Below, in pieces: positions 1,107-43,143 of a stretch of DNA of 43,143 nt. The notes beneath the pieces are model-generated. The model was given only the letters and a program-made list of their open reading frames with translations, had not been told where the DNA came from and made no database searches. The DNA comes from Bacteroidales bacterium (GTDB lineage: Bacteria; Bacteroidota; Bacteroidia; Bacteroidales; P3): contig JAGCOF010000055.1 of assembly GCA_017645585.1 (NCBI GenBank), positions 1-43,143 of the forward strand, in the 5' to 3' direction. Made by a program: the position numbers and the translations under genes. How positions within the stretch are numbered: position 1 is the stretch's first letter; each line of letters opens with the position of its first letter.

Positions 1107-1185
1107 CACTCCGCCCTTTCTCCATCTATTCTACAACTGTTCTTCAACAGTTCTTCAAGAAAAAGTTGAAGAACTGTTGAAGAAC
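1107..1185. repeat. 11-nt-period hairpin element, copy 1 (GTTCTTCAACA type)
   Basis: A perfect 20-bp inverted repeat (arms 1139-1158 and 1166-1185) encloses the 7-nt loop gaaaaag. The left arm continues outward as degenerate 11-nt units (TTTCTCCATCT, ATTCTACAACT, GTTCTTCAACA, GTTCTTCAAGA). The decamer cactccgccc (1107-1116) ends exactly 42 nt before the loop, the same distance as in the copy at 19243. It lies 17 nt beyond the adhesin terminator. Confidence 0.85.
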
Positions 1186-1201
1186 TGATGCAGAACGATT
1201 G

Positions 1202-1230
1202 AAAAAAGGGCGGCTCCTGCGAGCCGCCCT
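1202..1230 (-). terminator. Rho-independent terminator of the T9SS adhesin gene
   Basis: A 9-bp GC stem (gggcggctc 1208-1216 with gagccgccc 1221-1229) and a 4-nt loop are followed on the minus strand by six T (1202-1207). It lies 29 nt after the adhesin stop codon. Confidence 0.9.
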
Positions 1231-1258
1231 GAGGTTACAGCGCCGTTGACGCTACGGG

Positions 1259-4200
1259 TTATTTCACTATCAGTTTGCGGACGGCGGTGGTGTTGCTGCC
1301 GGTGACGCGCACAAAGTAGGCGCCCTTGGCAAAGCCGGCCACGTTGACCGTCATCTTCGCTCCGCCAGCCTTTTCGGCAAACACCACACGACCATTGAGG
1401 TCAATGATGCTGACAATGGCAGCATCCTCGACACCCGTCAGGTCGAGGGTCACCGTGGTGGTGGCGGGGTTCGGGTAGAGGACGAATCCGTCTGCGAAGT
1501 CCACACCGTCGATGTCCTGCGATGCCACTGTGTCGGTCGTGAAGCTGACCGCAGTGCTCCACTCGGAAGTGGGCTCGTAGTTCTGACCATTGCAGAGAGC
1601 ACGCACACGGACACTGTAGCCCAGGTTGGGCAGCAAGCCGGTGAGGGTGTACGGGTTGGTGCTGGCGGTGAGGGTGGTGCTGCCGCTGACGTTGGTGAGC
1701 TCAATCTCCCACGCGTCGGCCGTCGAGGTCCAGCTGAGGGTGGCAGAGTTGGAGGTCACATTGCTGACGGCAAGGTTGGTCACCGGGTCGCACGGGAGAA
1801 TGACCACCGTGTAGTGCGTGTTGAGCGTGGCGGGGAAGCTGGCCGTGGAGGTGTCAGTGCCGCAGATGCCAACCACCTGAAGCACATAGGTGGTGTCGGG
1901 CGTGAGGCCGGTGAGCGTGGTCGAGGTGCCGTTGATGCCGCTCTGGACGGTCCAGGTGGCAGCATCCGCCAACTTGTAGTAGAGGTCATAGGAGGCCGCG
2001 CTGCCGTTCCAGGTCACATTGGCCTCACCGTTGCCGGTCATCATGGCGTTGAGCTGGGCCGGACGCTCGCAAAGGGCCGTGCCGACGCAATGGATATAGA
2101 GCTCATAGCCGGTGTGCACATAGTTGCCCGAGCAGGTGAAGGTGATGGTCATGGCGCCGGTGGTCGAGGTGGCCAGCACCGAGTCGAGGGTGTAGTTGGT
2201 GGTACCCGTGTTGGTCTTCTCATAGAGGACGGTGCCGGCGGTGCCTTCGCCGTCATAGATGGTGAGGGTGATAGACGACTCGCCCCAGCCAAACTTGCCG
2301 CCAAAGACCTGGAGTTCGCTACCGGCGTTCTCCGCACGGATGACAAGGGCCGAGTTGCTGTAGTCAGCATAGCCGGCCACAGGGCCGCCGTTGTCGTAGA
2401 CCACCAGACCGCAGGCCACCACCGTGTCGGCCGTAGCACTATTGTTCATCACGTATGTGCCGGCGCCGAAGGTGTAGCTGCTCCAGGAGCTCTGCTCCGC
2501 ACCGCAGTTGGCGCGGACATAGAAGGTGTAGATGCCGCCACCCTGGATGATGCCCATAGGAATTTCATAGTAGGGGGTGTTGAGCACGTCCACCAGCAGG
2601 CTGTCGGGAACATTGGCAATGTCAGCAGTCACGGTGTCGACATAGACCTGCCACTCAGCCTCGTTACCAAGCGGGTGCCAAGTAAAGTTGGTGTGGTCAG
2701 GGTCAATGGCATTGTGGATAGTCAGGCTGTCGACGGGGTAGCAGTCGGGCAGCGAAATGACCGTGATGCTGTCAATGGAGGCCCAGAGGTTACCAGGACC
2801 ACTGAGTTTACGGCCAAGTGCAATACGCTCGCCGGGGCCATAATAGTTGAGGAAGTTGTAGGTGTGCTCCACCCACGCAGCCTGCGAATGGTTAGGATGA
2901 TAGAGCGTGTCAATCCAGGCAATGAGGTTACCTGTAGCATCAGCCACACCAATCATGATACCGTCACCCTCACTGTCAGGACGGCACTTGGTGAAGAAGG
3001 TAATCTGCAACTTGTTGAAGTTAGCGGCGAACTGCGGCATCACGGCGGGAATACCGTTCGAGTAGGCACCGAACATCAATTCGCCGTTACCCGAGGTTTC
3101 CGGCCAATTGTTCCAACCCACAGGGCTCTGGTAGTCCCAACAGGGAGGCAGCGTGCCATCGGCACTGTAGAAGTTCTCAAAGTAGGGCACCGCCAGCAGG
3201 TCGCAGGTGGTCTGCGCGCTGAGCGGAGAGGTCCACAGGGTGTCGCTGTTGCAGAGGTAGCCCACTCGGAACACATAGTTAGTGGCAGCGTTGAGGCCAT
3301 TCACAGTATAGGTGGTGTCGTTGACGGCGACGGTGGTGTCCCAAGCGGTAGCGCTGGCGGCACGGTACTGCACCACGAAGTCGTTGTTCGACGAGGTGTT
3401 GACCCACGTCAGGTCCACGCTGTGGGCAGCAGGCGTTGCCGTCAGGTTGACAGGGTACATGCAACCCTCGTTCTTGCGGATATTGATGTCGTCAACATTG
3501 ATACCATAATAACTGCCATTGAAGCGGAAAGCCACATAGTAATTAGTATAGTGGTCCATCAAGTCGGTGTTGAACTCAAACATCTCATAGCCGTTGGTGC
3601 CGGTGACCGTGAGCAGGGGGGTGAAGGTGGAGTCGTAGAGGGGGTTGGTCATCACGCCGACCTGGAGGGTGCCGCTGTAATTGTCGGTCCAGAAGCTGAC
3701 GTAGATGGAGTCGCCATCAAGGGGCACCTGGCTGGTGGCAATCATGTCGCCACTCTCGAAAGCGAGCGAGTTGGTGCCGGTGTGGGCGTAATAGTTACCC
3801 GTCATAACGGCGGGGCTGCCGCTGACCACGTTCCAGCACGAAGGCACGCTGCCGTCGTTGTCACTTTCAAAGCTCTCCACCACGGGCAGCACCATCTCGC
3901 CGCAGGCGGTCTTGACAGTGATGGTACGTGCCACCGACGAGTCGACATTCACTTCGCAGATAGCAATCACGCTGAAGGTGTAGGTAGTGTTGGGAGTGAG
4001 GCCCGTCACCATGTGCGAGGCGTTGCCGTTGTTGGGCATAGTGTAGCCGCCGCCGTTGAAGGAGACAATGTAGTGGTCCACATTGACATCCTCGGTCCAG
4101 ACGAAGGTAAGCTCATTGCTATCCACTGCCGACAGCATCACGCCGGCAGGTGCAAAGCAGGTGGGGCAGGGATCCAAAATGATATCACTGTGGTTCACGC

Positions 4201-6781
4201 CGCTGGTGGTCGAACTGTAGACCTCAGCACCACCACCATCGTAAATGGTATATGTGATTTCACTGTCATAACTACCCGTCTGCCAACTGAAGCTAACGGG
4301 CGTACCACTGCAGACGCTCACCATGGCGGTGTCATAAATAGGAGTGCTATACAAACCCTGGCCCGGCATACTGTAGGAACCTACCACCATACCGTTCTGG
4401 GTAAAGTTAAGTTGTGCGCCGTTCCAGCCGTCACCATAGGAATCCTGTGCGGCAATAACAATATCGCACGAACCGCCGGCACAATCAGTAGTGAAACTGA
4501 TATTTCGCCATTCCGAGGTGTCGCCCGAGCAGTCGCTGGCCACATAGGCAGTATAGGCGGTGCGGGCATCAAGGCCGGTGAAGGTGTAGAAGGTATCGCT
4601 GGTGGTGTAGACGGTGCTGTCGAGGAGCACGAAGAAGTCGCTCTGGCCGTCGGGGGCAGTCCAATAGATGGTGGCCGCGTCAGCCGTGACAGTGTCGACA
4701 CCCATCAACGACACAGGCATACATGCAGGAGGTTCGATGAAGTTGATGTCGTCAATGTAAAGATACAGCTGATCATAAGACGTGAGCTGGATAGAGACAT
4801 ACTTGGTGCCAGCGGGATAGATGGCCGAGAAGGTTTGGTAACTTGAGGTAGCGGTCATTTCATCGCCCCACACAAACGAGCTGACAGAGTCGTTAGTTGT
4901 GGAGTAGCCGACCTTAAAGGTCTCGGTGTAGGAGGTACCCTGCTTATAGGCAAACTGCACCTTCACACCATTGTCGGTGCCCGTCAGCTCGGGCGAGATA
5001 AGGTACTGATTATTGTAACCATAGTAGAAACGGAAGCAAGCGTTGCCGGTGTTGGCATTGCCGGTAGTGCGACCTGTGTTGCTCGCACAGTCAACCATCT
5101 TCCAGCAACTGAGGGCGCCAGCATCCTCGAAGCCCTCGGTGAAGGGTATCTGCATAGCAGCGCAGGCGGTGCGGCCGCTGACGGTGACCGCTTCGGCATC
5201 GCCACTACCACAATTGACCACCACGCTGAAGGTATAGGGTGTGTTGGCGTTGAGGTTGTCAAAGACATAGAACAAATCAGTGATGTTGCTCTGCTCCACA
5301 GTGTCGTTGGGGCCGTAGCAAGTCACCGTGTAGGTGGCGCCGCTGTTGAGCGTATCCACCCAGCTGAGGGTGATGCTCTCGTCGCTCACACTGTCGATAG
5401 CCACGCTGCTGACACGCAAGCAGGAAGGAATCTCACTAATATAGACATCGTCGAACTTACCGATATAGCCGGTGCCGTAGGCCAACCAGGCCACGCGGTA
5501 GTTCTCGGTGGAACTGAGGTTGGCGGTATTGAACTCATACTCGGCCCAACTGCTGCCGTTGACCTGCACCAGGGGAATGAAGGTGCTGGTGTCGTGGGGA
5601 TTAGAGATGACGCCAGCCTTGATCCAGCCATTGTTGACAAAAGCCCAGAAGCGGCAATAGATATTGTCGCCGCTGACATCCATCGTGGGGCCGACCACCA
5701 GGTTGTAATTCTCATTCGAGTTGCCCTGCAGATACATGGCATAGGTACCGCCAGGGGTATGCTGCGTGGGGTTGTAGCTGCCACCGGGCTGGTCGTTCAC
5801 GCTTGGGTCGGTGCCGGCATGGATGGTGCTGTCCCAACAAGGATACCAGGCACCATTGTGGGCGGCATCTTCAAAGTCGACAAATAAAGGCAGGCTCATG
5901 GTGCCGCAGGCGGTGCGGAAGGTGCCGCCCAGGGCAACGGAGTTGTCGCTAGCCGAGCAGTTGACCTGCACGGTGTAGTGGTAGCCGGTGTTGGCATTGA
6001 GGCCCGTGAGGGTGGCCGAGTCGCCCGACGAGGTCTCAGTGAGGATGTTGGTGGCATCGCCGTCGGCCCAGTAGGTAACGGTATAGTTAGCTCCACTATT
6101 CAAACTGTCCACCCAGGTGATGACGGCGCTATTGCTGTCGACGGTTCCCAAACCGTAGCTTTGCACAGCGGGGCAGGTTACAGGCGTACCACCGGTGAAA
6201 GTGAAGGTGGTCTTGGGCATGAAGTTTTGAGCACTGCCTGTAATGTTTGACCAACTACTCGAATTGTAGCCTTGCCAGCTGGCACCATTTGCGGAGATGC
6301 CATAGAAAGAGCAGCTAGTCCAACCGCCCGTAGCGGTCTGGCTAACCTCAACCAGCAGGTTGCCACCATTGTATGTGTAACCATTGTCAAAGGTAATCTG
6401 CATCACACCGCTGCCAATCGTAAGTGAGCCGGTGTAGACAGTGGTTGCGTTGCTGACATCAGCCCAACCGTTGAGCGTGGTGGCTGTCACTTCGGTCATC
6501 TTCACGACAAAGGTGCCGGAGTAAGAGGCACTACTACCAGAGTAGAAAGTTAAGCCGGTAATTGTTCCACCATTCATGTCAATGGTGTTCACCTCAGCAG
6601 CTATATCAGCTGCAGGGTAGATAGTTTGGCAACGCAGATAAGCGTCGGCCCAAAGGCCATAGACAGGCACATTGCCGTTAGTCTCTGTGCCATCGGCAAT
6701 GGTCAGTGTGTTCTGCGCGCTTGCGACCCACGGCAGCACCATCAGTGCCACAAGGGTCAAAAAGCGTAAAAACTTTTGCAT
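1259..6781 (-). CDS. Giant secreted modular adhesin with T9SS type A sorting domain
   Basis: The product is a predicted 1840-residue surface or secreted protein. I chose the ATG at 6779-6781 (MQKFLRFLTLVALMVLPWVASAQ, a clean Sec signal peptide) over an in-frame ATG nine codons upstream. Domains in order, roughly: an N-terminal beta domain (24-200), then repeated modules of fibronectin type III plus a jelly-roll/MAM-like lectin domain. Each jelly roll opens with a motif like ACGTMSLPLFVDFED; four copies are visible. Also present are a segment with DSYGDGWNGAQL (about 780-860), a CUB-like segment with KFGWGESSITLTIYDGEG (about 1460-1575), and two further FnIII domains. The last ~75 residues hold YPNPATTTVTLDL and end FVRVTGSNTTAVRKLIVK, the T9SS C-terminal signal. 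It is transcribed alone, with its own promoter and terminator. Ligand unknown; adhesion or glycan binding is inferred from the domain types. Confidence 0.9.
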   Translation of the reverse strand: MQKFLRFLTLVALMVLPWVASAQNTLTIADGTETNGNVPVYGLWADAYLRCQTIYPAADIAAEVNTIDMNGGTITGLTFYSGSSASYSGTFVVKMTEVTATTLNGWADVSNATTVYTGSLTIGSGVMQITFDNGYTYNGGNLLVEVSQTATGGWTSCSFYGISANGASWQGYNSSSWSNITGSAQNFMPKTTFTFTGGTPVTCPAVQSYGLGTVDSNSAVITWVDSLNSGANYTVTYWADGDATNILTETSSGDSATLTGLNANTGYHYTVQVNCSASDNSVALGGTFRTACGTMSLPLFVDFEDAAHNGAWYPCWDSTIHAGTDPSVNDQPGGSYNPTQHTPGGTYAMYLQGNSNENYNLVVGPTMDVSGDNIYCRFWAFVNNGWIKAGVISNPHDTSTFIPLVQVNGSSWAEYEFNTANLSSTENYRVAWLAYGTGYIGKFDDVYISEIPSCLRVSSVAIDSVSDESITLSWVDTLNSGATYTVTCYGPNDTVEQSNITDLFYVFDNLNANTPYTFSVVVNCGSGDAEAVTVSGRTACAAMQIPFTEGFEDAGALSCWKMVDCASNTGRTTGNANTGNACFRFYYGYNNQYLISPELTGTDNGVKVQFAYKQGTSYTETFKVGYSTTNDSVSSFVWGDEMTATSSYQTFSAIYPAGTKYVSIQLTSYDQLYLYIDDINFIEPPACMPVSLMGVDTVTADAATIYWTAPDGQSDFFVLLDSTVYTTSDTFYTFTGLDARTAYTAYVASDCSGDTSEWRNISFTTDCAGGSCDIVIAAQDSYGDGWNGAQLNFTQNGMVVGSYSMPGQGLYSTPIYDTAMVSVCSGTPVSFSWQTGSYDSEITYTIYDGGGAEVYSSTTSGVNHSDIILDPCPTCFAPAGVMLSAVDSNELTFVWTEDVNVDHYIVSFNGGGYTMPNNGNASHMVTGLTPNTTYTFSVIAICEVNVDSSVARTITVKTACGEMVLPVVESFESDNDGSVPSCWNVVSGSPAVMTGNYYAHTGTNSLAFESGDMIATSQVPLDGDSIYVSFWTDNYSGTLQVGVMTNPLYDSTFTPLLTVTGTNGYEMFEFNTDLMDHYTNYYVAFRFNGSYYGINVDDINIRKNEGCMYPVNLTATPAAHSVDLTWVNTSSNNDFVVQYRAASATAWDTTVAVNDTTYTVNGLNAATNYVFRVGYLCNSDTLWTSPLSAQTTCDLLAVPYFENFYSADGTLPPCWDYQSPVGWNNWPETSGNGELMFGAYSNGIPAVMPQFAANFNKLQITFFTKCRPDSEGDGIMIGVADATGNLIAWIDTLYHPNHSQAAWVEHTYNFLNYYGPGERIALGRKLSGPGNLWASIDSITVISLPDCYPVDSLTIHNAIDPDHTNFTWHPLGNEAEWQVYVDTVTADIANVPDSLLVDVLNTPYYEIPMGIIQGGGIYTFYVRANCGAEQSSWSSYTFGAGTYVMNNSATADTVVACGLVVYDNGGPVAGYADYSNSALVIRAENAGSELQVFGGKFGWGESSITLTIYDGEGTAGTVLYEKTNTGTTNYTLDSVLATSTTGAMTITFTCSGNYVHTGYELYIHCVGTALCERPAQLNAMMTGNGEANVTWNGSAASYDLYYKLADAATWTVQSGINGTSTTLTGLTPDTTYVLQVVGICGTDTSTASFPATLNTHYTVVILPCDPVTNLAVSNVTSNSATLSWTSTADAWEIELTNVSGSTTLTASTNPYTLTGLLPNLGYSVRVRALCNGQNYEPTSEWSTAVSFTTDTVASQDIDGVDFADGFVLYPNPATTTVTLDLTGVEDAAIVSIIDLNGRVVFAEKAGGAKMTVNVAGFAKGAYFVRVTGSNTTAVRKLIVK

Positions 6782-6856
6782 AATTTTGTTGTTTTGGTTA
6801 ATAATCATTTTGTTGTATCCTTATTTTCAGCAATGTATGCAATAACGCAATACATG

Positions 6857-6885
6857 CAAATATACAAAAAAATAATTACATGCAA
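6857..6885 (-). promoter_or_regulatory. Promoter of the adhesin gene
   Basis: The minus strand reads TATATTTGC (-7 box at 6857-6864) with a partial -33 box (TTG, 6883-6885) 18 nt upstream. The roughly 70-nt leader carries an imperfect inverted repeat (ATGTAT...ATACAT, about 6833-6857), possibly a small leader hairpin. Confidence 0.65.
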
Positions 6886-6935
6886 CAATTTTTCCCGACC
6901 CATTGGGCGGAATTCAACCGACAATCCTCCCTGTT

Positions 6936-7030
6936 AACTCCGTCCTGACTCCTACTGTTCTTAGGTTGTTCTAAGGTTGTTCTTAGGTTTTTTATCTAAG
7001 AACAACCTTAGAACAACCTAAGAACAGTAG
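6936..7030. repeat. 11-nt-period hairpin element, copy 2 (GTTCTTAGGTT type)
   Basis: A perfect 35-bp inverted repeat (6952-6986 and 6996-7030) with a 9-nt loop gttttttat. Each arm holds three 11-nt units: GTTCTTAGGTT, GTTCTAAGGTT, GTTCTTAG. The decamer aactccgtcc (6936-6945) lies 41 nt before the loop, the same place as the TCC decamer of copies 1 and 3. It sits in the 350-nt spacer between the divergent adhesin and metal-uptake promoters. The rest of that spacer (7031-7115) shows nothing I recognise. Confidence 0.9.
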
Positions 7031-7115
7031 GTGTTGGTAGGGAGTGATAGCGGTATGGAGAAGGGGGGGTAAAGTGATTTTAACTTTTTTTTCTCAAAAA
7101 TAACGGCTTTTTTTG

Positions 7116-7123: not shown

Positions 7124-7131
7124 CCGCCGAA

Positions 7132-7488: not shown

Positions 7489-7544
7489 TTTTCATTGCTT
7501 GAATGTGAAAACAAACAGTCAAACAATCGAATAATCAGAAAATC

Positions 7545-17414: not shown

Positions 17415-19163
17415 TCAACCGAGGTTCATGCTCTTCTTAATGCTCTCAATCTTGGCGTCGAGGGCGTCGTTGGTCTTGTCGAAGCAATCCTTGCAGCACA
17501 ACTCGGCCTTCACGCCGAAATAGAACTTGATCTTGGGCTCGGTGCCGCTGGGGCGCACGGTAACCTTGTTGCCGCCAGCGGTGAAGAACTGCAGCACGTT
17601 GCTGGTGGGCAGGTCTATCGGTGTCACCGCACCGGTCAGCAGGTCTTTGCTCTCGTGGAGTTTGTAGTCCTTGATGCAGACCACCTTCTCGCCGTCGATT
17701 TCGGCGGGCGGGTTGCTACGGTAGTCGCGCATCATCTGCTGTATCTCCTCGGCGCCGCTCTTGCCTTTGCGCACCACACTCAGGAGGCCCTCCTTGTAGA
17801 AGCCATACTCTTTGTAGATGTCGATGAGCACGTCGAAGAAGGTCTTGCCCTGTTCGCAGGCCCAGGCAGCTATCTCGGCAATCATCGAGCAGGCCGCCAC
17901 GGCGTCCTTGTCGCGCACAAAGTCGCCAATCATATAGCCGTAGCTCTCCTCGCCACCGGCAATGAAACTCTCAATGCCTTCCAACTCACGTATCTTGGCA
18001 CCGATGAACTTAAAGCCAGTCAGCACGTCGTATATCTTGATACCGGCACGTGTGGCAATGTCGGCAGGCAGCTCGCTGGTGACGATGGTCTTCACCATGA
18101 ACTCGTTGCCCGTCAGCATCTGCTTCTCCTGCCACTGCTTGACGATATAGTAGAACAACACGCTCATCGTCTGGTTGCCGTTGAGCAGCATCCACTCACC
18201 ATCGGGACGTTTCACGGCCACGCCCACACGGTCGGCGTCGGGGTCGCTGGCGAAGACGATATCGGCGTCAATCTGCTTGGCCAGCTCCACAGCCATGCTC
18301 ATGGCGGCCTTCTCCTCGGGATTGGGGCTGGGGGTGGTGGGGAAGTTGCCGTCGGGCACAGCCTGCGCCTCCACCACATTCACATTGGTGAAGCCCAACT
18401 GCTTGAGCATACGCGGGATGAGGGTAATACCGGTGCCGTGCAACGGCGTGTAGACAATCTTCACATCGTGGTGCTTCTTGATGACCTCGGGGTTCAGCGC
18501 ATTGGCCTCCACGCGAGCCAGGTAGACCTTGTCCACCTCCTCGCCCACGATGGTGATGTTCTGCTCGCCACCGGTCATCTTCACGTCAGAGACAGCCTTG
18601 ATCTTCAGCACCTCGTCGATGACGGCCTCGTCGTGCGGCGCCGTCAGTTGGCAACCGTCGCTCCAATAGGCCTTGTAGCCATTATACTCCTTGGGGTTAT
18701 GGCTGGCGGTGAGCATCACACCCGTGTGGCACTTGAAGTGGCGCACGGCGAAGCTCAGCTCCGGCGTGGGACGCATGCCATCGAACAAGAACACCTTGAA
18801 TCCGTTGGCGGCAAGCACATTGGCAGTGATTTCGGCGAACTCGCGGCTGTGGTTACGGCTGTCGTGGCTGATGGCGGCACGCAACTCGCTCTCGCCGGCA
18901 AACTGCTGACGGACATAGTTGGCCAAGCCCTGGGTGGCCATGGCCACCGTGTACTTGTTCATGCGGTTGGTGCCCACACCCATGATGCCACGCAGGCCAC
19001 CGGTGCCGAACTCCAGGTGGCGGTAGAAACTCTCGTTGAGCTCCGTGGGGTTGGCCGCCATGTCGCGGATGGCCTGCTTCGTGGCCTCGTCATATTCTCC
19101 TTCCAGCCAGGCTTTCACATTCAGCTTGGCGCTTTCGTCGATGTTCAATGCATTGATATCCAT
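17415..19163 (-). CDS. Alpha-D-phosphohexomutase (phosphoglucomutase/phosphomannomutase)
   Basis: A 582-residue cytoplasmic mutase, the length of the Bacillus PgcA/human PGM2-like group. The active-site serine is in LTASHNPKEYNGYKAY, the Mg2+ loop is DPDADRVG, the sugar-binding loop GGEESYGY, and the phosphate-binding loop RPSGTEPKIKFYF near the end. It interconverts hexose 1- and 6-phosphates. Phosphoglucose isomerase lies 7 kb away on the other strand. It leads the pgm-recR-GH3 unit. The promoter is not obvious; the 198-nt upstream spacer holds hairpin copy 3. Confidence 0.95.
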   Translation of the reverse strand: MDINALNIDESAKLNVKAWLEGEYDEATKQAIRDMAANPTELNESFYRHLEFGTGGLRGIMGVGTNRMNKYTVAMATQGLANYVRQQFAGESELRAAISHDSRNHSREFAEITANVLAANGFKVFLFDGMRPTPELSFAVRHFKCHTGVMLTASHNPKEYNGYKAYWSDGCQLTAPHDEAVIDEVLKIKAVSDVKMTGGEQNITIVGEEVDKVYLARVEANALNPEVIKKHHDVKIVYTPLHGTGITLIPRMLKQLGFTNVNVVEAQAVPDGNFPTTPSPNPEEKAAMSMAVELAKQIDADIVFASDPDADRVGVAVKRPDGEWMLLNGNQTMSVLFYYIVKQWQEKQMLTGNEFMVKTIVTSELPADIATRAGIKIYDVLTGFKFIGAKIRELEGIESFIAGGEESYGYMIGDFVRDKDAVAACSMIAEIAAWACEQGKTFFDVLIDIYKEYGFYKEGLLSVVRKGKSGAEEIQQMMRDYRSNPPAEIDGEKVVCIKDYKLHESKDLLTGAVTPIDLPTSNVLQFFTAGGNKVTVRPSGTEPKIKFYFGVKAELCCKDCFDKTNDALDAKIESIKKSMNLG

Positions 19164-19242: not shown

Positions 19243-19344
19243 CTGAGTCCGCCCGTTCAACAACAATTCTTCAGCAGTTCTTCAACAGTTCTTCAATATT
19301 TTCTTGAAGAACTGTTGAAGAACTGCCGTTAAACGGTTGTTGAA
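19243..19344. repeat. 11-nt-period hairpin element, copy 3 (GTTCTTCAACA type, 89-nt core)
   Basis: Arms 19256-19296 and 19304-19344 (41 nt each) flank the 7-nt loop tattttc. The inner 23 bp and outer 9 bp pair perfectly; the 9 nt between are largely mismatched. The left arm reads as four 11-nt units (GTTCAACAACA, ATTCTTCAGCA, GTTCTTCAACA, GTTCTTCAA). A flank ctgagtccgcccg (19243-19255) is shared with copy 5. It begins 17 nt after the rnc stop codon, so it lies in the rnc 3' region and upstream of pgm. Confidence 0.9.
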
Positions 19345-19361
19345 AAGCAGGTGTCAGGGGG

Positions 19362-20087
19362 TTACAAGGCCTCCGGCGTGGCGGCGACGAGGGCCTTGTA
19401 GGTCTTCTCAGCGGCCAGCTGTTCGGCGGCCTTGATGGTGTAGTCGATGGCCGACTGCTGGGGTTGACCGTCAATGTTGACGCGGCACTCGTATTCTTTA
19501 CGGCCGCCCTCGAGCGTGCGCGAGCGCACCACCTCGAAGCTGATCTTGCGGTGGTTCTTCTGGCCCCAGTCGATGAGCTTGCCCTTGTAGTTCCAATCTG
19601 TGTTGGCCAAGGTGTCGATGTCGAGGTAGGTGCAGAGGAGCTTATCGATAATCAGGTGGCGCGTGAAGTGGAAGCCCTTCTCAAGATAGACGGCACCGAT
19701 GAGGGCCTCGAAGGCGTCGCCACCCAGGCTCTTGAAGGCACCCTGCTGGCCACGCTGGTGCTCGACGAGCTCGGGCAACCCTATCTTGCGGGCCAAGCTA
19801 CCGAGGCTCTTGCGGCTCACTATCTTGGAGCGCATTTCGGTGAGGAAGCCCTCGCCCTTCATGGGATATTTTTTGTACAGGTATTCGGCCACAATGGACC
19901 CCAACACGGCGTCGCCCAGATACTCGAGACGCTCGTTGTTGATGCGGTGACCGTGCTCGACAGACGACGAGGAACTGTGGGTCAGCGCAATATGATAGAG
20001 CTCAGTGTGCCGTGGCGTAAAGCCCAGCACATTCTTGAAGAAACGGTAAAATTCGGGGCTCTCCTTCTTCCTGGCAAACAGCGGCAT
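19362..20087 (-). CDS. rnc: Ribonuclease III
   Basis: A 241-residue double-strand-specific endoribonuclease. I use the ATG at 20085-20087 (MPLFARKKESPEFYRFF), 2 nt after the fabF stop; the longer frame runs into fabF. The RNase III signature NERLEYLGDAVLG and the second catalytic segment GGDAFEALIGAVYLEKG carry the metal-binding Glu/Asp residues. A dsRNA-binding domain follows (WGQKNHRKISFEVV ... AAEQLAAEKTYKAL). The order acpP-fabF-rnc is common in Bacteroidota. A perfect long hairpin (copy 3) lies just beyond its stop codon. Confidence 0.96.
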   Translation of the reverse strand: MPLFARKKESPEFYRFFKNVLGFTPRHTELYHIALTHSSSSSVEHGHRINNERLEYLGDAVLGSIVAEYLYKKYPMKGEGFLTEMRSKIVSRKSLGSLARKIGLPELVEHQRGQQGAFKSLGGDAFEALIGAVYLEKGFHFTRHLIIDKLLCTYLDIDTLANTDWNYKGKLIDWGQKNHRKISFEVVRSRTLEGGRKEYECRVNIDGQPQQSAIDYTIKAAEQLAAEKTYKALVAATPEAL

Positions 20088-20089
20088 GG

Positions 20090-21334
<1,245 letters not shown>

Positions 21335-21701: not shown

Positions 21702-21876
21702 CGAAAAATTTCTGACATGACAACAATATTTAACATTTCTCACCCTATCCCCAAGGGGTAATCAGCTGAAACAAAATAAGGTGCATTTTAAACTTTTTTA
21801 ACTAAACAGGTGCCGAAAATGTTGTTTTTTTACCTCTATAGACCCTGTTTTCTCCAAAATAATACCTACTGTCCAT

Positions 21877-21960
21877 TTTCTGTTTAACTACTGTTTAACT
21901 ACACTTTCTAGTCAAACAGTAGTTAAACAGAAACAAAACAGTTGTCAATGAGAAGGACTC
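21877..21960. repeat. 11-nt-period hairpin element, copy 4 (GTTTAACTACT type)
   Basis: Arms 21877-21900 and 21910-21933 pair over 24 bp with one mismatch, loop acactttct. Units are GTTTAACTACT repeated at 11-nt spacing. Read from the other strand, the decamer gagtccttct (21951-21960) lies 41 nt from the loop, as in copies 1-3, so this copy is in reverse orientation. It sits in the 394-nt spacer between divergent acpP and purN. Apart from this and the promoters I see nothing else there. Confidence 0.8.
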
Positions 21961-22633: not shown

Positions 22634-22635
22634 CC

Positions 22636-30617: not shown

Positions 30618-30710
30618 CATATTTTTTTTCAATTGCAACCAATTATTTATCATTCGCGCCTTGAAAAGCCACTACCTGGCTGCCTCACAGCCATTTGCCA
30701 ACACCGACCT

Positions 30711-30812
30711 TTCAACGACCGTTTAACGGCAGTTCTTCAACAGTTCTTCAAAACTTTTTTGAAGAACTGTTGAAGAACGGCTGAAGAATTGTTGTTGAAC
30801 AGGTGGACTTAG
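30711..30812. repeat. 11-nt-period hairpin element, copy 5 (GTTCTTCAACA type, 89-nt core, inverted relative to copy 3)
   Basis: Arms 30711-30751 and 30759-30799 (41 nt each) flank the 7-nt loop aactttt. Its reverse complement matches copy 3 over both arms with one difference per arm in the segments compared, and the 13-nt outer flank matches at 10 of 13 positions. Its edge lies 31 nt before the sigma-54 site at 30831. Confidence 0.92.
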
Positions 30813-37613: not shown

Positions 37614-37617
37614 TCAG

Positions 37618-37649
37618 ATTCCCACATTTCCACATTAACGCATTCCCAT
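37618..37649 (+). repeat. Octamer array in the flavoprotein/Cys-rich gene spacer
   Basis: Four 8-nt units in a row: attcccac, atttccac, attaacgc, attcccat. They fill most of the 47-nt gap between the two genes. Confidence 0.6.
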
Positions 37650-37660
37650 ATCAAAAAGAC

Positions 37661-38059
37661 ATGGACGAAAGCGGCAAACAAATAATTGCTATGGATTATA
37701 GAGGAGAAGCGATAGAATGCATCAAAGGCAATGTCCTCCAGATGCATAAACAAATATATGCCAAGTATAAAGGGGATTTTGACAGAATCTATACCGAAGC
37801 ATACAATAATGCCTCCTATATGGGTAAGGTGATTGAACCCGGGAAGGAATATGAATTGAGTTATTTGGAGTGTTCGTGCCCAAAAGTAAAAAGTGGACTC
37901 AGGAGCAACCCGGAGCAATGCGAATGTTCACGACAGAGCATTTTATTTATTCTCTCACAGCTTGAACCGGAAAGTCTGTTCGATGTCCGGATTGAGAATA
38001 CGATTCTTCGAGGGAGCGACCGTTGCACATTCAGAATAACGAGAAATTCTAAATTATGA
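37661..38059 (+). CDS. Small cysteine-rich protein of unknown function
   Basis: A 132-residue cytoplasmic protein; start ATG 37661 (MDESGKQIIAMDYRGEAIE). Cysteines lie at 20, 71, 73, 87, 89 and 122, with C-x-C pairs in LECSCPKVKSG and QCECSRQS. The ending LFDVRIENTILRGSDRCTFRI resembles the C-terminal strand of V4R/ATC-hydrolase-like small-molecule-binding domains (GxxxCxFxI). The assignment to that group is tentative. Its DNA is visibly richer in A/T than its neighbours, suggesting a separate origin. Its stop overlaps the next start by ATGA, so it is translated as part of the operon. Confidence 0.65.
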   Translation: MDESGKQIIAMDYRGEAIECIKGNVLQMHKQIYAKYKGDFDRIYTEAYNNASYMGKVIEPGKEYELSYLECSCPKVKSGLRSNPEQCECSRQSILFILSQLEPESLFDVRIENTILRGSDRCTFRITRNSKL

Positions 38060-38706
38060 CTAAGCTTCAAAACAGGCCCAACCCCGACGAGGCTTTCCCC
38101 AATCCCAATCTCCCGCGCCTTTGCTTTATCAAGAACGTGGTGAAGAACCCGCGTATCATCATTGGCGACTATACCTACTACGATGATGTGGATGGTGCCG
38201 ACCAGTTTGAGAAGCATGTCACCCATTTCTACGACTTCATTGGCGACCGACTGATTATCGGCAAGTTCTGTGCCATTGCCAGAGGGGTGGAGTTTGTGAT
38301 GAATGGCGCCAATCACCGCATGGACGGCGTGACAACCTATCCGTTCTATATCATGGGTGGCGACTGGGGCAGCGCCATCGCTCCTGTAAAAGACGAATTG
38401 CCCCTGAAGGGCGACACCGTTGTGGGCAATGACGTTTGGATTGGCCAGCATGTAACCATTATGCCAGGCGTTCATATCGGTGACGGTGCCATTATCGGAG
38501 CCAACTCGGTTGTTGCCTCTGACATTCCTCCATACGCTATTGCCGTGGGCAACCCCTGCCGGGTGGTCAAAATGCGTTTTGACGACGAGTTCATCGCCTA
38601 TCTGTTGAAGTTGAAATGGTGGGATTGGGACATAGAGAAGATTGAGGCCAATTTCGAGGCCATGTCAAGTAATGATTTGTCATTAATCAAAAAGATAAAA
38701 AAATGA
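38056..38706 (+). CDS. Xenobiotic/streptogramin-type (Vat-CatB family) hexapeptide acetyltransferase
   Basis: A 216-residue acetyltransferase of the XAT class. IIIGDYTYYDD, DFIGDRLIIGKFCAIARGVEF, MNGANHRMDGVTTYPF (catalytic His) and GNDVWIGQHVTIMPGVHIGDG, AIIGANSVVASDIPPYAI are in Vat/CatB order, including the long loop. The group includes enzymes that acetylate antibiotics, but many members act on other substrates; no resistance role can be claimed. It overlaps both neighbours by 4 nt and forms the second acetyltransferase-flavoprotein pair of the operon. Confidence 0.9.
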   Translation: MTKLQNRPNPDEAFPNPNLPRLCFIKNVVKNPRIIIGDYTYYDDVDGADQFEKHVTHFYDFIGDRLIIGKFCAIARGVEFVMNGANHRMDGVTTYPFYIMGGDWGSAIAPVKDELPLKGDTVVGNDVWIGQHVTIMPGVHIGDGAIIGANSVVASDIPPYAIAVGNPCRVVKMRFDDEFIAYLLKLKWWDWDIEKIEANFEAMSSNDLSLIKKIKK

Positions 38707-39239
38707 AGAAAGTAGTCGTTATATCAACCAGTCTTCGTCCGGGCTCGAACAGTCACGCTTTGGCGGAGCAATTTGCCAAAGGCGCTGAAGCCGCCGGACA
38801 TCAGGTGGAACTCATATCGCTGAGAGGCAAAGAGATAAAATTCTGTGTCGGCTGCCTGTCGTGCCAACAGACGGGCGCCTGCATCTTCAAGGACGATGTG
38901 CCCGCCATTATGGAGAGTGTGCTGAACGCCGACGTTGTCTGCTGGGCCACCTCCATCTACTACTACGAGATGAGCGGCCAGATGAAGACCCTCATCGACC
39001 GCATGAACGCCATGTATACAAAGGATTACCGCTTCCGCAACATCTACCTACTTACTACGGCCTTCGAGAACGAGACGCACGTCCCCATGCGCGCCGAGAA
39101 TGGCCTGCAGGGCTGGATCGACTGTTTTGGCAAATCCACACTCAAAGGCCACCTCTTCTGCGGTGGTGTGGGTGCCCCGAACGATATTGAAGGCAATGCC
39201 AAGCTGCAGGAGGCTTACGAATTAGGAACAAAAATTTGA
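38703..39239 (+). CDS. Iron-sulfur flavoprotein-like NAD(P)H reductase (second copy)
   Basis: A 178-residue flavodoxin-fold protein. VVISTSLRPGSNSHALAEQF is the FMN loop. The cluster motif Cx2Cx2Cx5C sits at C48, C51, C54, C60, with the same spacing as in the protein at 36996. ATSIYYYEMSGQMKTLIDRM is the flavin helix. It is last in the operon and ends 12 nt before a strong terminator. It is related in fold to the first copy but the sequences are clearly different, so it is not a recent duplicate. Confidence 0.88.
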   Translation: MKKVVVISTSLRPGSNSHALAEQFAKGAEAAGHQVELISLRGKEIKFCVGCLSCQQTGACIFKDDVPAIMESVLNADVVCWATSIYYYEMSGQMKTLIDRMNAMYTKDYRFRNIYLLTTAFENETHVPMRAENGLQGWIDCFGKSTLKGHLFCGGVGAPNDIEGNAKLQEAYELGTKI

Positions 39240-39251
39240 GAAAGCATTAGA

Positions 39252-39289
39252 AAAGCCCCTGCAACCACTTGGTTGCAGGGGCTTTCGTT
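39252..39289 (+). terminator. Terminator of the seven-gene operon (probably bidirectional)
   Basis: A 15-bp stem (aaagcccctgcaacc with ggttgcaggggcttt) and a 4-nt loop actt, followed by CGTTTTC. The opposite strand ends in TTTTCTAATG, so it may also stop rpsU transcription. Confidence 0.9.
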
Positions 39290-39331
39290 TTCAATGGCGT
39301 TGCTCCGATTGGGGAGCTCTCTCCGTCGGGC

Positions 39332-39529
39332 TTACTTGTCGAGCTCTTGCTGGCGCAGGTGCTGGACGTAGATGGCCTTCAGGTGCTTCTCGCGATTGAT
39401 GACGCTGGGCTTGGTGAACTGCTGACGACGACGCATCTCTTTCACCACGCCGGTCTTGTCGAATTTGCGTTTCAGCTTCTTCAGAGCTCTCTCAAGGTTT
39501 TCACCTTCTTTGATAGGAACTACGATCAT
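39332..39529 (-). CDS. rpsU: 30S ribosomal protein bS21
   Basis: A 65-residue basic protein. MIVVPIKEGENLERALKKLK followed by KFDKTGVVKEMRRRQQF is diagnostic of bS21. It ends RQQELDK. It lies 118 nt downstream of rpmB on the same strand, and I see no separate promoter in that gap. In Bacteroidota bS21 has been linked to the free ribosomal anti-SD region (established knowledge). Confidence 0.96.
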   Translation of the reverse strand: MIVVPIKEGENLERALKKLKRKFDKTGVVKEMRRRQQFTKPSVINREKHLKAIYVQHLRQQELDK

Positions 39530-39591
39530 TGCTAATACCTCTTTCTTCTTTAAGGTTAATACTAATTGTTATTTAAGACTTGTTGTCTTCT

Positions 39592-39661
39592 CTTAGAACA
39601 TCAGGTATTCCTTATGTTTATCGTTTTGGCCATTCGACCAAGACGACTTAGAACATCAGGT
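39592..39661 (-). repeat. 15-nt direct repeat spanning the rpmB stop codon and the spacer
   Basis: cttagaacatcaggt occurs at 39592-39606 and 39647-39661. The second copy covers the last codons and stop of rpmB. Between them, on the minus strand, a tiny frame MAKTINIRNT ends in the other copy (39601-39633). I do not call it a gene. Confidence 0.7.
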
Positions 39662-39887
39662 GTCCCTGGGCGGCAGCGTCGTTGAGGGCGGCGATGATGC
39701 CTTTCTTGTTGATGATGCGCATGCCCTTGGCAGAGACCTTCAGGGTAATCCACATGTCCTCCTCGGGAATGTAGAACTTCTTGGTCTGCAGGTTGGGTGC
39801 GAAGGTACGCTTGGTGTGGATACGGGAGTGCGAAACATTGTTGCCCACAATCACTTTCTTGCCGGTAATTTCACATTTCTTTGACAT
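39648..39887 (-). CDS. rpmB: 50S ribosomal protein bL28
   Basis: A 79-residue ribosomal protein. MSKKCEITGKKVIVGNNVSHSRIHTKRTF and the RTFAPNLQTKKFYIPEE segment are typical of Bacteroidota bL28. It has a consensus promoter about 70 nt upstream. In many relatives rpmG (bL33) and DUF4295 follow; here neither does, and rpsU follows after a spacer with a direct repeat. Confidence 0.96.
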   Translation of the reverse strand: MSKKCEITGKKVIVGNNVSHSRIHTKRTFAPNLQTKKFYIPEEDMWITLKVSAKGMRIINKKGIIAALNDAAAQGHLMF

Positions 39888-39952
39888 TGCAGTATAATTT
39901 TTATTGTTTTTTTACGTTAATGAACCGCGTTTTCTTTCAACGAAAACGGCGG

Positions 39953-39983
39953 CAAAAGTACTACCTTTTTCCGACATGGCAAA
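39953..39983 (-). promoter_or_regulatory. Consensus promoter of rpmB-rpsU
   Basis: The minus strand has TTTG (39980-39983), 19 nt, TACTTTTGC (-7 box 39953-39960). All consensus bases match. Confidence 0.85.
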
Positions 39984-40142
39984 ATAAATGGACGTTGATA
40001 AGTTGCTTTTTAAATCTTTTTAACATTTTGTTAAATACAACACTCTGATATACAACAATTCAAATAAAACGGTTTTTGTGGTTTTAACACTATTTTCCCA
40101 GGCAGTTAGACACCTTTTCCATTGCAATTATTAACATTTCGC

Positions 40143-41201
40143 ATGGCTTTTTGGACAAAATTGGAGGCTTGGTACAACGACTACGGACGCACCCTTCCGT
40201 GGCGTGGAATCGACAACCCGTACTACATCTGGCTGTCGGAAATCATCCTGCAGCAGACTCGCATCGAGCAGGGGCGCGACTACTACCTGCGCTTCATCGA
40301 GACCTTCCCCACGGTGGCCGACCTGGCCACCGCCAGCGAGGAGCAGGTGCTGCGCCTATGGCAAGGGCTGGGCTACTACTCGCGCGCGCGCAACCTGCAC
40401 GCGGCCGCGCAATATATTATGGATGAGTGTGGGGGCCGCTTCCCCGACACCTACGACGGCATCCTGCGCCTCAAGGGCGTGGGGCGCTACACCGCCGCCG
40501 CCATCGCCTCCTTCGCCTACCGTCTGCCCCACCCCGTCATCGACGGCAACGTCTACCGCTTCATCAGCCGCCTGCGCGGCATCGCCACCCCCATCGCCAC
40601 CGACGCGGCCTATCGGGAGTTCGAGTCCCTGCTGACACAGCTGATTGACCGCGAGCGGCCCGACCGCTTCAACGCCGCCCTGATGGACTTCGGCGCCCTG
40701 CAGTGCCGCCCGCAGCCCGACTGCACGGCCTGCCCCTTCGCCGACGAGTGCGAGGCCTTGCGCACCGGACGCGTCGACATGCTGCCCGTCAAAGCCCCCA
40801 AAGCCAAACCCAAAGACCGTTGGTTCTACTACTTCGACCTGCGCTGGCGCAAGGAGGGGGTGCAATACGGATGGATGCACCGCCGCACGGACAACGACAT
40901 CTGGCGAGGACTCTTCGAATTCGATTTGATGGAGACCTCGCAAGAATTATCACCCGACGACCTGAACACCGCCATCCAGCACTTTGCCCAAGAGGCCTAT
41001 CACCTTTCACCTATCACCTTTCATCTCTCGCCTCCCTACCTCCACCAGCTCACACACCGCACCATCCACGCCCGGTTCATACAGGCAGAATTGCCCCAAG
41101 AACCGGTTTCACATCCCGCCGACGGCATGGCAATGACCGCCCGGCAGATGAATTCTGTGCCCGTACCGAGGCTGATTGATAAGTATTTGCAGTCATTGTG
41201 A
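40143..41201 (+). CDS. mutY: A/G-specific adenine glycosylase
   Basis: A 352-residue repair enzyme removing A opposite 8-oxoG. Start ATG 40143 (MAFWTKLEAWYNDYGRTLPW); an upstream TTG is less likely. Catalytic Glu33 is in LSEIILQQTR, the HhH is LRLKGVGRYTAAAIASFAY, and the catalytic Asp is in VIDGNVYRF. The iron-sulfur motif is CRPQPDCTACPFADEC: C-x5-C-x2-C-x5-C, one residue shorter in the first loop than usual. The C-terminal NUDIX-like domain reads GGVQYGWMHRR-like sequence, then a heptamer-encoded insert YHLSPITFHLSPPY before HQLTHRTIHARF. ssb follows after 82 nt. Confidence 0.94.
   Translation: MAFWTKLEAWYNDYGRTLPWRGIDNPYYIWLSEIILQQTRIEQGRDYYLRFIETFPTVADLATASEEQVLRLWQGLGYYSRARNLHAAAQYIMDECGGRFPDTYDGILRLKGVGRYTAAAIASFAYRLPHPVIDGNVYRFISRLRGIATPIATDAAYREFESLLTQLIDRERPDRFNAALMDFGALQCRPQPDCTACPFADECEALRTGRVDMLPVKAPKAKPKDRWFYYFDLRWRKEGVQYGWMHRRTDNDIWRGLFEFDLMETSQELSPDDLNTAIQHFAQEAYHLSPITFHLSPPYLHQLTHRTIHARFIQAELPQEPVSHPADGMAMTARQMNSVPVPRLIDKYLQSL
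40998..41032. repeat. Heptamer array inside mutY
   Basis: Five 7-nt units: tatcacc, tttcacc, tatcacc, tttcatc, tctcgcc. The other strand reads GGTGATA/GGTGAAA, sharing a GGTG core with the arrays at 31217 and 32032. Confidence 0.8.
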
Positions 41202-41283
41202 ATATCTTTATTTTACCAATTCATTTTTTTGTTGTATTTTCGCATTTCAAAATATACAACTATTCAGACTAAACGATACAGTA

Positions 41284-41706
41284 ATGATTGGAGTAAACAA
41301 AGTTATCCTGGTAGGAAATGTAGGTAAGAATCCCGATGTGGTAACATTCCCGTCCGAAGGCTCAGCGCCCGTCAAGAAAGCATCATTCCCCCTGGCCACC
41401 ACCGAATACCGCCGCCACCGCGACAACGAACGCGTGGAGGTCACCGAGTGGCACAACGTAGTGTGCTGGCGCGGCCTAGCCGATGTGGCCGAGCGCATCC
41501 TCGCCAAAGGAGCTCAAATATATGTAGAGGGTCGGCTGCAGAGCCGCTCGTGGGAAGACAAAGAGGGCAACAAGCGCCACGTCACCGAGGTGGTGGCCGA
41601 CAATCTGCTGCTGCTCTCCAAGCGTCAGCAGGAGGAGATGCGCAACAATCCGCTGATGGATATCCTCAACAACGAGACCGAGCCCCTCGGCGACCTCCCC
41701 TTCTAA
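41284..41706 (+). CDS. ssb: Single-stranded DNA-binding protein
   Basis: A 140-residue SSB. Start ATG 41284 (MIGVNKVILVGNVGKNPDVV). The OB fold has FPLATTEYRRH, EWHNVVCWRGLADVAERILAKG and QIYVEGRLQSRSWEDKEGNK. The C-terminal tip EPLGDLPF is the acidic tail that recruits repair and replication partners. The linker is very short compared with E. coli SSB. A -7-like TATTTTCG upstream suggests its own promoter, although it also follows mutY closely. Confidence 0.96.
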   Translation: MIGVNKVILVGNVGKNPDVVTFPSEGSAPVKKASFPLATTEYRRHRDNERVEVTEWHNVVCWRGLADVAERILAKGAQIYVEGRLQSRSWEDKEGNKRHVTEVVADNLLLLSKRQQEEMRNNPLMDILNNETEPLGDLPF

Positions 41707-41711
41707 TCTAT

Positions 41712-41740
41712 GTACAAGAACGCTTTACGCGTTCTTGTAC
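41712..41740. terminator. Hairpin between ssb and hpf, overlapping the hpf stop codon
   Basis: A perfect 12-bp stem gtacaagaacgc/gcgttcttgtac with loop tttac. The hpf stop codon (TAA at 41725-41727 on the minus strand) is in the loop. T-runs on either side are weak (TTCTC), so termination in both directions is likely but not certain. Confidence 0.65.
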
Positions 41741-42012
41741 TTCTCAATCTGAACCTTCATGGCGTCAACGGCCTCGCTGACAGCCTGTTCGAAGGTGTCG
41801 GCCTGCTTGCTGATGAACAGTGTCTGGCCGGGCAGCGCCAATTGCAGCTCGGCTATTTTATTGTTGTCGCTCTCGGGTTTGTCTATCTTGAGGAACACCT
41901 CGCACTTGGTGGCGCGGTCGGTCATGCGGTCGAGTTTGCCGACTTTTTCGTTGATATACTTCTCGAGTTTCTCGTCGGCTTTGAATTTGGCAGTGTTGAT
42001 GATTGTGTTCAT
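41725..42012 (-). CDS. hpf: Ribosome hibernation promoting factor, short form
   Basis: A 95-residue HPF/RaiA protein that binds the 30S decoding region in slow growth. MNTIINTAKFKADEKLEKYI, VGKLDRMTDRATKCEVFLKI, ELQLALPGQTLFISKQADTF and AVSEAVDAMKVQIEKYKNA follow the family beta-alpha-beta3-alpha order. It lacks the C-terminal dimerisation domain of long HPF. It starts 24 nt after the recombinase gene on the same strand, the conserved xer-hpf pairing of Bacteroidales. Confidence 0.94.
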   Translation of the reverse strand: MNTIINTAKFKADEKLEKYINEKVGKLDRMTDRATKCEVFLKIDKPESDNNKIAELQLALPGQTLFISKQADTFEQAVSEAVDAMKVQIEKYKNA

Positions 42013-42036
42013 GGCAATTATATTTAGGGTTAATAA

Positions 42037-42939
42037 CTATTCTCTCCGTTTCCGTCCCCGGGGATGGGCCTGCCTGTAGACCTCCTTCATCCGCTCGCGC
42101 GTCACGTGGGTGTATATCTCCGTCGTCGCCAGGTTCTCGTGACCCATCAGTTCCTTGATGGCCGCCAGGTCGCCGCCCTCGTTCAGGATGTGCGTCGCAA
42201 AGCTATGGCGGAACACATGCGGCGACACACGGTCGGCGTTCGACAGCGAGGTCATGTACTTCTTCACCACGTAGTTCACGCTCTCGGGACTCATCTGCTT
42301 GCCCTTGCGGTTAACAAACAGCCACTCCACATCGCCCATCTCCTGTTGCTTTAACGCAAGATATTCCGAAATATTGTGTGCAAGCTCGATTTCTATCGGT
42401 ATCAGCCGCTCCTTGTCGCCCTTGCCGCGCACCTTCAGCGTCAGCGCCGACAGATCAGCCGACCCGTCGCGCAGCCCCACCAGCTCGGCACGGCGGATGC
42501 CCGTCTCATACAGCAGCCTCAGCATCAGCCGGTCGCGCCGTCCGAAGAAATCGTCGCCAAACAGGCCGGCGTCATAGAGGTGCTCCGTTTCGCTCTCGCG
42601 GAAGAACACCGGCAGGCGCTTGGGCTGCTTGGGCACCGACACCTTGGCCAACAGGTCCTCGCCGTAATAGCCGCGCCGACGCAGGAAGCGCAGCCAGCTG
42701 CCCACCGCCGCCATCCGGCGCCGCACCGTCCGGGGCGACTCCTTGCGCTCGATGTGCTGCAGCTCCCACTCGCGCACATCGCGCGCCGTCAGCTGCTCCA
42801 ACTCGCTCACCTCCACAGCCTTCAGATAGCACGCCAGGTCCTCCAGATCAGACATATACCAGCGCATCGTCGCCTCCGACAGGCGGCGCTCGTTGGCTAT
42901 ATAGTCACGAAAACGGGCTATGGACTCCTCCAGTTTCAT
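42037..42939 (-). CDS. Tyrosine recombinase, XerC/XerD type
   Basis: A 300-residue site-specific recombinase for chromosome dimer resolution. Start ATG 42937-42939 (MKLEESIARFRDYIANERRL). The N-terminal SAM-like core-binding domain covers about 1-90; the catalytic domain has all residues: R in TGIRRAELVGL, K in VRGKGDKERLIPI, H-x-x-R in HVFRHSFATHIL, H in LMGHENLATTEIYTH, and the Tyr nucleophile in IYTHV. It is a housekeeping Xer rather than an integrase, judged by length and neighbour hpf. Its -7 box ends 5 nt before the ATG, so the mRNA may be leaderless. Confidence 0.93.
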   Translation of the reverse strand: MKLEESIARFRDYIANERRLSEATMRWYMSDLEDLACYLKAVEVSELEQLTARDVREWELQHIERKESPRTVRRRMAAVGSWLRFLRRRGYYGEDLLAKVSVPKQPKRLPVFFRESETEHLYDAGLFGDDFFGRRDRLMLRLLYETGIRRAELVGLRDGSADLSALTLKVRGKGDKERLIPIEIELAHNISEYLALKQQEMGDVEWLFVNRKGKQMSPESVNYVVKKYMTSLSNADRVSPHVFRHSFATHILNEGGDLAAIKELMGHENLATTEIYTHVTRERMKEVYRQAHPRGRKRRE

Positions 42940-42944
42940 CGCTG

Positions 42945-42976
42945 CAAAGATACGAAAAAATACCGAACCGCGCAAA
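42945..42976 (-). promoter_or_regulatory. Promoter of the xer-hpf unit
   Basis: The minus strand has TTTG (42973-42976), 20 nt, TATCTTTGC (-7 box 42945-42952). The ATG begins 5 nt further. Confidence 0.75.
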
Positions 42977-42997
42977 AAAACTCACCAAATCCCACTC

Positions 42998-43037
42998 TTC
43001 GACTATCGTTCGACTACTGTTTAACTATAGTTAAACA
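42998..43037. repeat. 11-nt-period element, copy 6 (GTTTAACTA type, short right arm)
   Basis: Units CTTCGACTATC, GTTCGACTACT, GTTTAACTATA follow at 11-nt spacing and end in the 20-bp palindrome tgtttaactatagttaaaca. The right arm is short, so this copy may be decayed. No clear TCC decamer. Confidence 0.6.
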
Positions 43038-43068
43038 ACCACCCAAAGGTAAGAGACAGGACGGAGAT

Positions 43069-43143
43069 GATTCCTACCATTCCTCAAATGTTCTACGGCA
43101 GTTCTTTGGTCGTTCTTTGCTTTTTTCCAAAGAACGACCAAAG
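43069..43143. repeat. 11-nt-period hairpin element, copy 7 (GTTCTTTGGTC type, cut by window end)
   Basis: Arms 43104-43119 and 43128-43143 pair perfectly over 16 bp; the loop is cttttttc. Units GTTCTACGGCA, GTTCTTTGGTC, GTTCTTTGCTT are at 11-nt spacing. The decamer gattcctacc (43069-43078) lies 41 nt before the loop. The right arm runs to the window edge, so its full length is unknown. Confidence 0.8.

Follow-up and report, generated by a model that had tools for sequence, protein, structure and literature searches.

The hairpins found between genes in this DNA are part of a repeat system found in one genus of rumen Bacteroidales (120 genomes searched), in which the spacing of the units is kept while their sequence changes. 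The features observed are an 11-nt pitch, unit sequences (here called words) that depend on the species, conservation of the outer units without covariation, replacement of loops at orthologous sites, and the gene context of the arrays. A bolder reading, which we hold to be less likely than not, is a genus-wide system that would inherit its 11-bp pitch and not its sequence, the word being free and rewritten in concert at many fixed intergenic sites while the element grows from the centre of the palindrome and carries older words as its outer layers, with a putative copying machine and a putative phase-reading protein. To our knowledge the elements match no repeat family described so far, and the initial annotation had noticed something real that is larger than it described.

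The window is the whole stretch analysed (43,143 nt); its genome, G000, is 83% complete, and the window together with 20 further stretches makes up a 421-kb sample of it. Seven hairpin sites had been listed from the window, and inverted repeats were confirmed at 1107, 6936, 19243, 21877, 30711 and 43069, while the site at 42998 proved weak: its mirror spans about one unit only, next to a left side with 11-nt units, and it lies outside the set of hairpins scoring at least 15. That set comprises seven hairpins in the window, six at family sites and an unrelated one at 39252, and seven lag-11 arrays scored at least 12. Forty order-2 Markov simulations of the window yielded no score-15 hairpin and no lag-11 array; the hairpins are real and far above chance expectation. 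The 421-kb sample held 36 inverted repeats scoring at least 15. Among its 32 hairpins with arms of at least 19 nt, the arm matched itself at lag 11 in 21, at lag 7 in one and at lag 14 in one, and at no other lag from 5 to 16, including 10 and 12. Score-15 hairpins with 11-nt units have arms of 16-36 nt or more, and their core stems, about 20-36 bp long, show perfect or almost perfect pairing.

Elements of the 11-nt repeat family in the window
Element	Coordinates	Units and loop	Context
A-type	1106..1218	arms of nearly five 11-nt units, core GTTCTTCAACAGTTCTTCAA, 7-nt loop at 1159-1165, outer unit TCACTCCGCCC	
E-type	6937..7045	word GTTCTTAGGTT / GTTCTAAGGTT, 9-nt loop, outer units of the ACTCC class	flanking genes divergent
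A-type	19244..19356		between RNase III gene (19362-20114, minus) and phosphoglucomutase gene (17415-19163, minus)
F-type	21868..21942	word GTTTAACTACT, 7-nt loop	upstream of formyltransferase-domain gene (22055, plus)
A-type	30699..30811	left outer units TTTCAACGACC and GTTTAACGGCA, similar to the C word	
Partial	42990..43039	left units GTTCGACTACT (43008) and GTTTAACTATA (43019), ~1 unit mirrored	
B-type	43070..43143	word GTTCTTTGGTC, loop CTTTTTTC	right arm truncated by window end

The initial annotation had stressed the 11-nt spacing and its helical phase, and the pitch is indeed specifically present, as seen in 8-mer lags, a census of tandem periods and the spacing of short anchors. Noncoding 8-mers in the G000 sample (43.5 kb) recurred 433 times at lag 11, 184 times at lag 22 and 84 times at lag 33, whereas lags 10 and 12 gave 9 and 5 recurrences; no lag-11 peak appeared in 72 loci of other families (27 at lag 10, 60 at 11 and 73 at 12). 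Tandem arrays with periods of 10, 11 and 12 nt numbered 0, 41 and 0 in the 421 kb of G000, the count excluding arrays mostly inside ORFs of at least 100 aa and thereby hiding some elements of genome G029; after removal of every period-11 array touching the A word, 33 remained. The same periods gave 1, 4 and 3 arrays in the 72 loci of other families (1.33 Mb), and 3, 66 and 4 in 80 congener stretches (1.54 Mb), a total that is not blind, being drawn partly from contigs with known word hits. The fairer congener sample, 20 stretches picked irrespective of repeats, gave 2, 13 and 2, with period-11 arrays in 6 of the 20, while 15 further congener stretches gave 0, 7 and 1 and eight titled congener loci 0, 1 and 0. 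Unlike period 11, periods 7, 14 and 21 are represented by arrays both in congeners and in other Bacteroidota families, and periods 7 and 14 are present in G000 too.

Anchors of 6-7 bases, selected after the arrays had been inspected, are kept at 11, 22 and 33 nt while the spacer letters vary. In G000 the anchor TCGGAC recurred at 11 (16 cases), 22 (13) and 33 nt (8), with single cases at 35, 42 and 44 and none at 10 or 12, and neighbouring spacers were unlike in eight of nine cases. CGGACCA in genome G010 recurred only at 11 (52), 22 (38), 33 (24) and 44 nt (10), with unlike neighbouring spacers in 32 of 38; GTTCTTC (1 of 2 unlike) and CCAAGAG (2 of 4) carry little information. Many arrays of G000 are tandem only, with no mirror arm, and the palindromes are a subset. 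Direct repeats in helical phase, which characterize iterons, were thus found in the period census and, post hoc, in the anchor spacing. The pitch could also be conserved by a process of mutation in 11-nt steps, through slippage or duplication of a primer's length, with mirror arms made by template switching and nothing selected, which counts against an iteron reading. Many unrelated words having only the period in common would be expected of such a process, an 11-nt duplication shifts the frame in genes so that arrays should survive mainly outside them, and the primers made by E. coli primase are about 11 nt long. Plain duplication does not, however, predict an anchor that is kept while adjacent spacers differ, and the dispersed, near-identical copies, homogenised across loci, also speak against it; we regard this explanation as improbable.

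Several words coexist in G000: A (GTTCTTCAACA), B (GTTCTTTGGTC), C (GTTCAACGGTA), D (GTTGTCCCATT), E (GTTCTTAGGTT) and F (GTTTAACTACT). Allowing up to two mismatches, the 20-nt A core had 41 matches on one strand of G000 and 40 on the other, as against 0 and 0 for the reversed control, and was present in 6 of 60 relatives (36 of them of the genus) with 1 to 4 matches each. Viral contigs contained no exact match of the A core, and a phage origin was rejected on this result for the A word. The 49 A arms have the profile TGACTCCGACY NTTCNNCAAYN GTTCNNCARCA GTTCTTCAACA GTTCTTCAA, with near-invariant T and C at 11-nt steps that are kept out to -47, although the invariance of the core is partly ascertained, the core having been the search key. 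C occupies -47 and -44 of the outermost unit in 49 of 49 arms. The TCC-containing decamer reported earlier at a set distance from the loop is real for the A type, where it is this outermost 11-nt unit, TGACTCCGACY at -53 to -43 from the loop. At the loci inspected an outer end TNACWCCKACY is often common to elements of different words, and some elements lie side by side with a common junction.

Conservation of form with change of word, as first proposed for the window, was seen both within G000 and between species. Dominant words differ by species, and close relatives can have one in common: G023 and G117 share GTTCTTCAGTA, G016 and G095 share GTTCTTCAGTT/C, and the TCGGAC units of G009 resemble those of G000. 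Sampled stretches of G095 and G016 showed no sequence similarity over 300 bp. Other species carry TGTACGCTATA (G078), GTTGTCCGCTT and TGTACAATATA (G093) or TAGGTATCCCC (G024). Across the 120 genomes of the genus, GTTCTTCNNNNGTTCTTC was found in 35 (G000 included), reaching 267 and 269 matches on the two strands of G099, with 0 to 3 in the reversed control, and the TCGGAC class was found in 13, mainly G000 and G010. In 480 kb of genome G029 there were 27 elements, of which 23 measured 91 bp and four 80 bp; this density extrapolates to about 118 elements in 2.1 Mb; its 354 and 368 matches allow three mismatches and overstate the number of elements. Element lengths step by 11, with observed distances between arm starts of 71, 82 and 93. 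Because contig ends sit in or near repeats (window 43104-43143; locus L038, 19555-19651; locus L043, 1-98), the repeats may break the assembly and so be undercounted. D-type arrays lie near the end of contig C27 (L038) and at the start of C38 (L043). The nearest titled records are rumen Bacteroidales.

It had been claimed that both arms of an element always change together and that pairing is selected rather than sequence. The outer units of 24 A-type loci contradict this: likeness was 0.61 for arms of the same locus and 0.60 for arms of different loci (permutation p 0.34), and no column outside the core covaried when compensatory changes were sought (lowest p 0.109). Same-locus arms were also not significantly closer than different-locus arms in G029 (27 elements), G023 (20) or G117 (19), the closest approach being in G023 at 67-88 nt out (0.343 vs 0.311, p 0.08). 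As an account of the elements, the idea that pairing is selected and not sequence is mostly wrong, since the outer arms keep their sequence at the 11-nt pitch and do not covary, and it is opposed as well by the many arrays that have no mirror arm. A contrary case comes from G078 and G093 (two copies each), where each copy has its own order of units, mirrored across its two arms. Within a locus, copying from arm to arm or selection for pairing is disfavoured by the arm comparisons, and these four copies speak against rejecting it.

Stem-loops of RNA, selected for A-form pitch and read by a double-stranded-RNA-binding protein or an RNase, would be served by the long and nearly perfect core stems, and A-form RNA has 11 bp per turn. 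Against them stand the outer units without covariation, the existence of tandem-only arrays and the Rfam matches of the window, which at gathering score are four tRNAs only, with no element matched. An RNA function of this kind seems very improbable.

The sister species G117 and G023 are about 90% identical over kilobases. By their flanks, 8 of 20 G023 loci were paired with G117 loci; because these eight found a partner among only 22 loci of an estimated 45-50 G117 elements, the comparison suggests that most element sites are common to both species, with the reservation that both locus sets were fetched around elements and presence in both is mostly ascertained. Orthologs were found by the core, and core identity is partly ascertained in this comparison, whereas loops and flanks played no part in finding the elements. 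The loops differed between the species at all eight paired loci. Among elements passing the arm filter, the loop of all 20 from G117 was CAAAC, in either orientation, and those of G023 had GCCGC (12 of 20), GCAGC (7 of 20) or GCCAC (1 of 20). Loop identity was 0.23 between orthologs (six of the eight pairs, two having failed the arm filter) as against 0.88 and 1.00 between paralogs. Similarity among copies drops with distance from the centre, and at 32-66 nt from the loop orthologs were about as unlike as paralogs. The ends comprised one AT-type and one CG-type in 19 of 20 G023 copies, and in 16 of 20 G117 copies either two AT-type or one AT-type and one GT-type. Because the loops differ between species at every paired locus and are uniform or nearly so within each, the elements evolve in concert: the sites look old, while what they contain seems to have been replaced at many of them jointly. 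This loop replacement is compatible with gene conversion and with precise re-insertion, and the earlier suggestion of a templated origin of the copies fits it too. In G023, a longer tandem repeat (about 70 nt, with GGCTATTGAAATGAAACCCCTATGGGG) adjoins an 11-nt element at locus L072, upstream of the phosphoglucomutase gene.

In a rival reading the elements are selfish and have no host function: short, non-autonomous, foldback- or MITE-like, with arms of tandem transposase-binding subrepeats, amplified in bursts by a putative transposase and inserting preferentially into older elements. High copy numbers that vary between species (27 per 480 kb in G029, 267 and 269 word matches in G099), ACTCC/ACACC outer ends common to different words and species, the two unlike ends of 19 of 20 G023 copies and the elements side by side with a common junction are all as this reading would have it. 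Simple new insertion does not, however, account for a loop replaced at sites common to sister species; many arrays are tandem only; no Y1 transposase was found in G000, G029 or G016 by the Y1 search; no autonomous copy came to notice in passing; and target duplications could not be defined by eye in the flanks inspected, nor was there a clean empty site. Compared with the terminal inverted repeats of MITEs, the ends are often ACTCC/ACACC units, yet they are degenerate and the two can differ. The foldback transposons of animals (FB/Galileo) have long inverted arms of short tandem subrepeats in variable number and resemble the elements in this; they are eukaryotic and larger, unlike the elements, and are not known to combine a fixed pitch with a changing word. 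On balance we consider a selfish origin rather unlikely.

Homogenisation could also follow from breaks made by SbcCD at palindrome centres and repaired from other copies. SbcCD cleaves palindromes, and the fall in similarity away from the centre would suit such repair. SbcD (TIGR00619 above cut-off) is patchy within the genus: 57 of 120 genomes have it, some of the 120 being incomplete; it was missing from 9 of the 14 genomes with at least 20 GTTCTTC matches, including G029, G023 and G117 (below cut-off), and from 54 of the other 106, and its presence shows no clear link to copy number. As a general driver SbcCD is mostly refuted by G023 and G117, a homogenised pair without SbcD above cut-off, and we give this explanation next to no credence.

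Gene context was examined as the orientation of flanking genes, with crude ORF calls, and covers arrays that have a called ORF on each side, nine that fall within called ORFs being excluded. Among the 66 arrays counted, the flanking genes were tandem in 29 cases, divergent in 27 and convergent in 10; 310 background gaps gave 180, 72 and 58. The excess of divergent pairs comes mainly from G000 (15 of 31) and G010 (7 of 15), and G029 is an exception (3 of 5 convergent, none divergent). The earlier statement that no element lies inside an operon is thereby qualified: arrays do lie in gaps between genes, and many of these gaps separate genes of the same direction, where co-transcription is possible. 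With no enrichment between convergent genes, and G029 again as the exception, the elements are unlikely to be terminators, and intrinsic terminators are not favoured.

Among known bacterial repeats, passages of PMC3733652 on REP/BIME sequences (GTAG and CGTC superfamilies) describe stems of 5-13 bp with a GTAG or CGTC tag, the GTAG families being associated with transposase genes. The elements are like these in forming many intergenic palindromes per genome, in families that can be confined to a species and in paired or clustered units, and unlike them in core stems several 11-nt units long and in their ACTCC/ACACC ends. The GTAG/CGTC tag is absent from the end of the A-arm consensus, the type compared. 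As for the Y1 (RAYT) transposase linked to REP/BIME sequences, at E 0.001 PF01797 had no match in G000 (83% complete), G029, G016 or G009, although it did in 52 of 79 congeners, including G023 and G010. RAYT-mobilised REPs were rejected on the carriers G000, G029 and G016. BrickBuilt, a MITE of one species, Porphyromonas gingivalis, has 23-nt direct repeats between leader and tail segments (PMC4596501); as there described in part, it resembles the elements in its host order (Bacteroidales), dispersal, internal tandem repeats and terminal inverted repeats, and the passages concerned mention neither mirrored arms nor word change at a fixed pitch. No paper on such elements was among the PMC matches listed, subscription journals and preprints lying outside that scope.

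The explanation that we favour, with somewhat less than even confidence, is that the elements are iteron-like arrays acting at the level of DNA, read on one face of the helix, whose core is homogenised in concert by conversion or re-insertion. A short anchor (such as TTC..C, GTTCTTC or TCGGAC) repeated at 11 bp would put its copies on one side of the helix; some arrays are mirrored to form palindromes, whose outer units are degenerate and of ACTCC/ACACC type. The arrays would probably be multi-copy binding sites for a putative protein, lineage-specific and fast-changing or connected with mobility, that assembles along the DNA. Sites would persist through speciation while the loop and inner units that make up the core are rewritten jointly at many places in the genome, whether by ectopic gene conversion or by repeated site-specific re-insertion, giving each lineage its own words. 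What we infer, beyond the observations, is the binding protein, the way in which copies are made and any gain for the cell. Plasmid iterons and the parC site of ParMRC consist of direct repeats at about one helical turn, 11 bp in parC of R1; unlike the dispersed copies with changing words described here, they form one site beside a cognate gene on the replicon. Two further points tell against the iteron reading: one protein could hardly read all the unrelated words that coexist in one genome, and ordinary recombination would need unusual efficiency to homogenise many dispersed repeats of about 95 bp. If the reading is true, a bacterial genome can keep many dispersed sites with one spacing even as sister species come to differ in sequence at many of these sites, and repeat uniformity within species with turnover between species becomes directly testable in bacteria. 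A so far undescribed protein that recognises DNA by helical phase, and a putative copying process, would then be indicated for a rumen group.

Two other features of the window lie next to elements. A separate GC-rich hairpin with a T-run (1200-1232), read on the minus strand beside the element at 1107 and downstream of an fn3-domain gene (1259-6808, minus), has the look of an ordinary terminator and lies outside the repeat family. Finally, a tyrosine recombinase gene (42037-42975; PF00589, PF02899) starts right by two elements.
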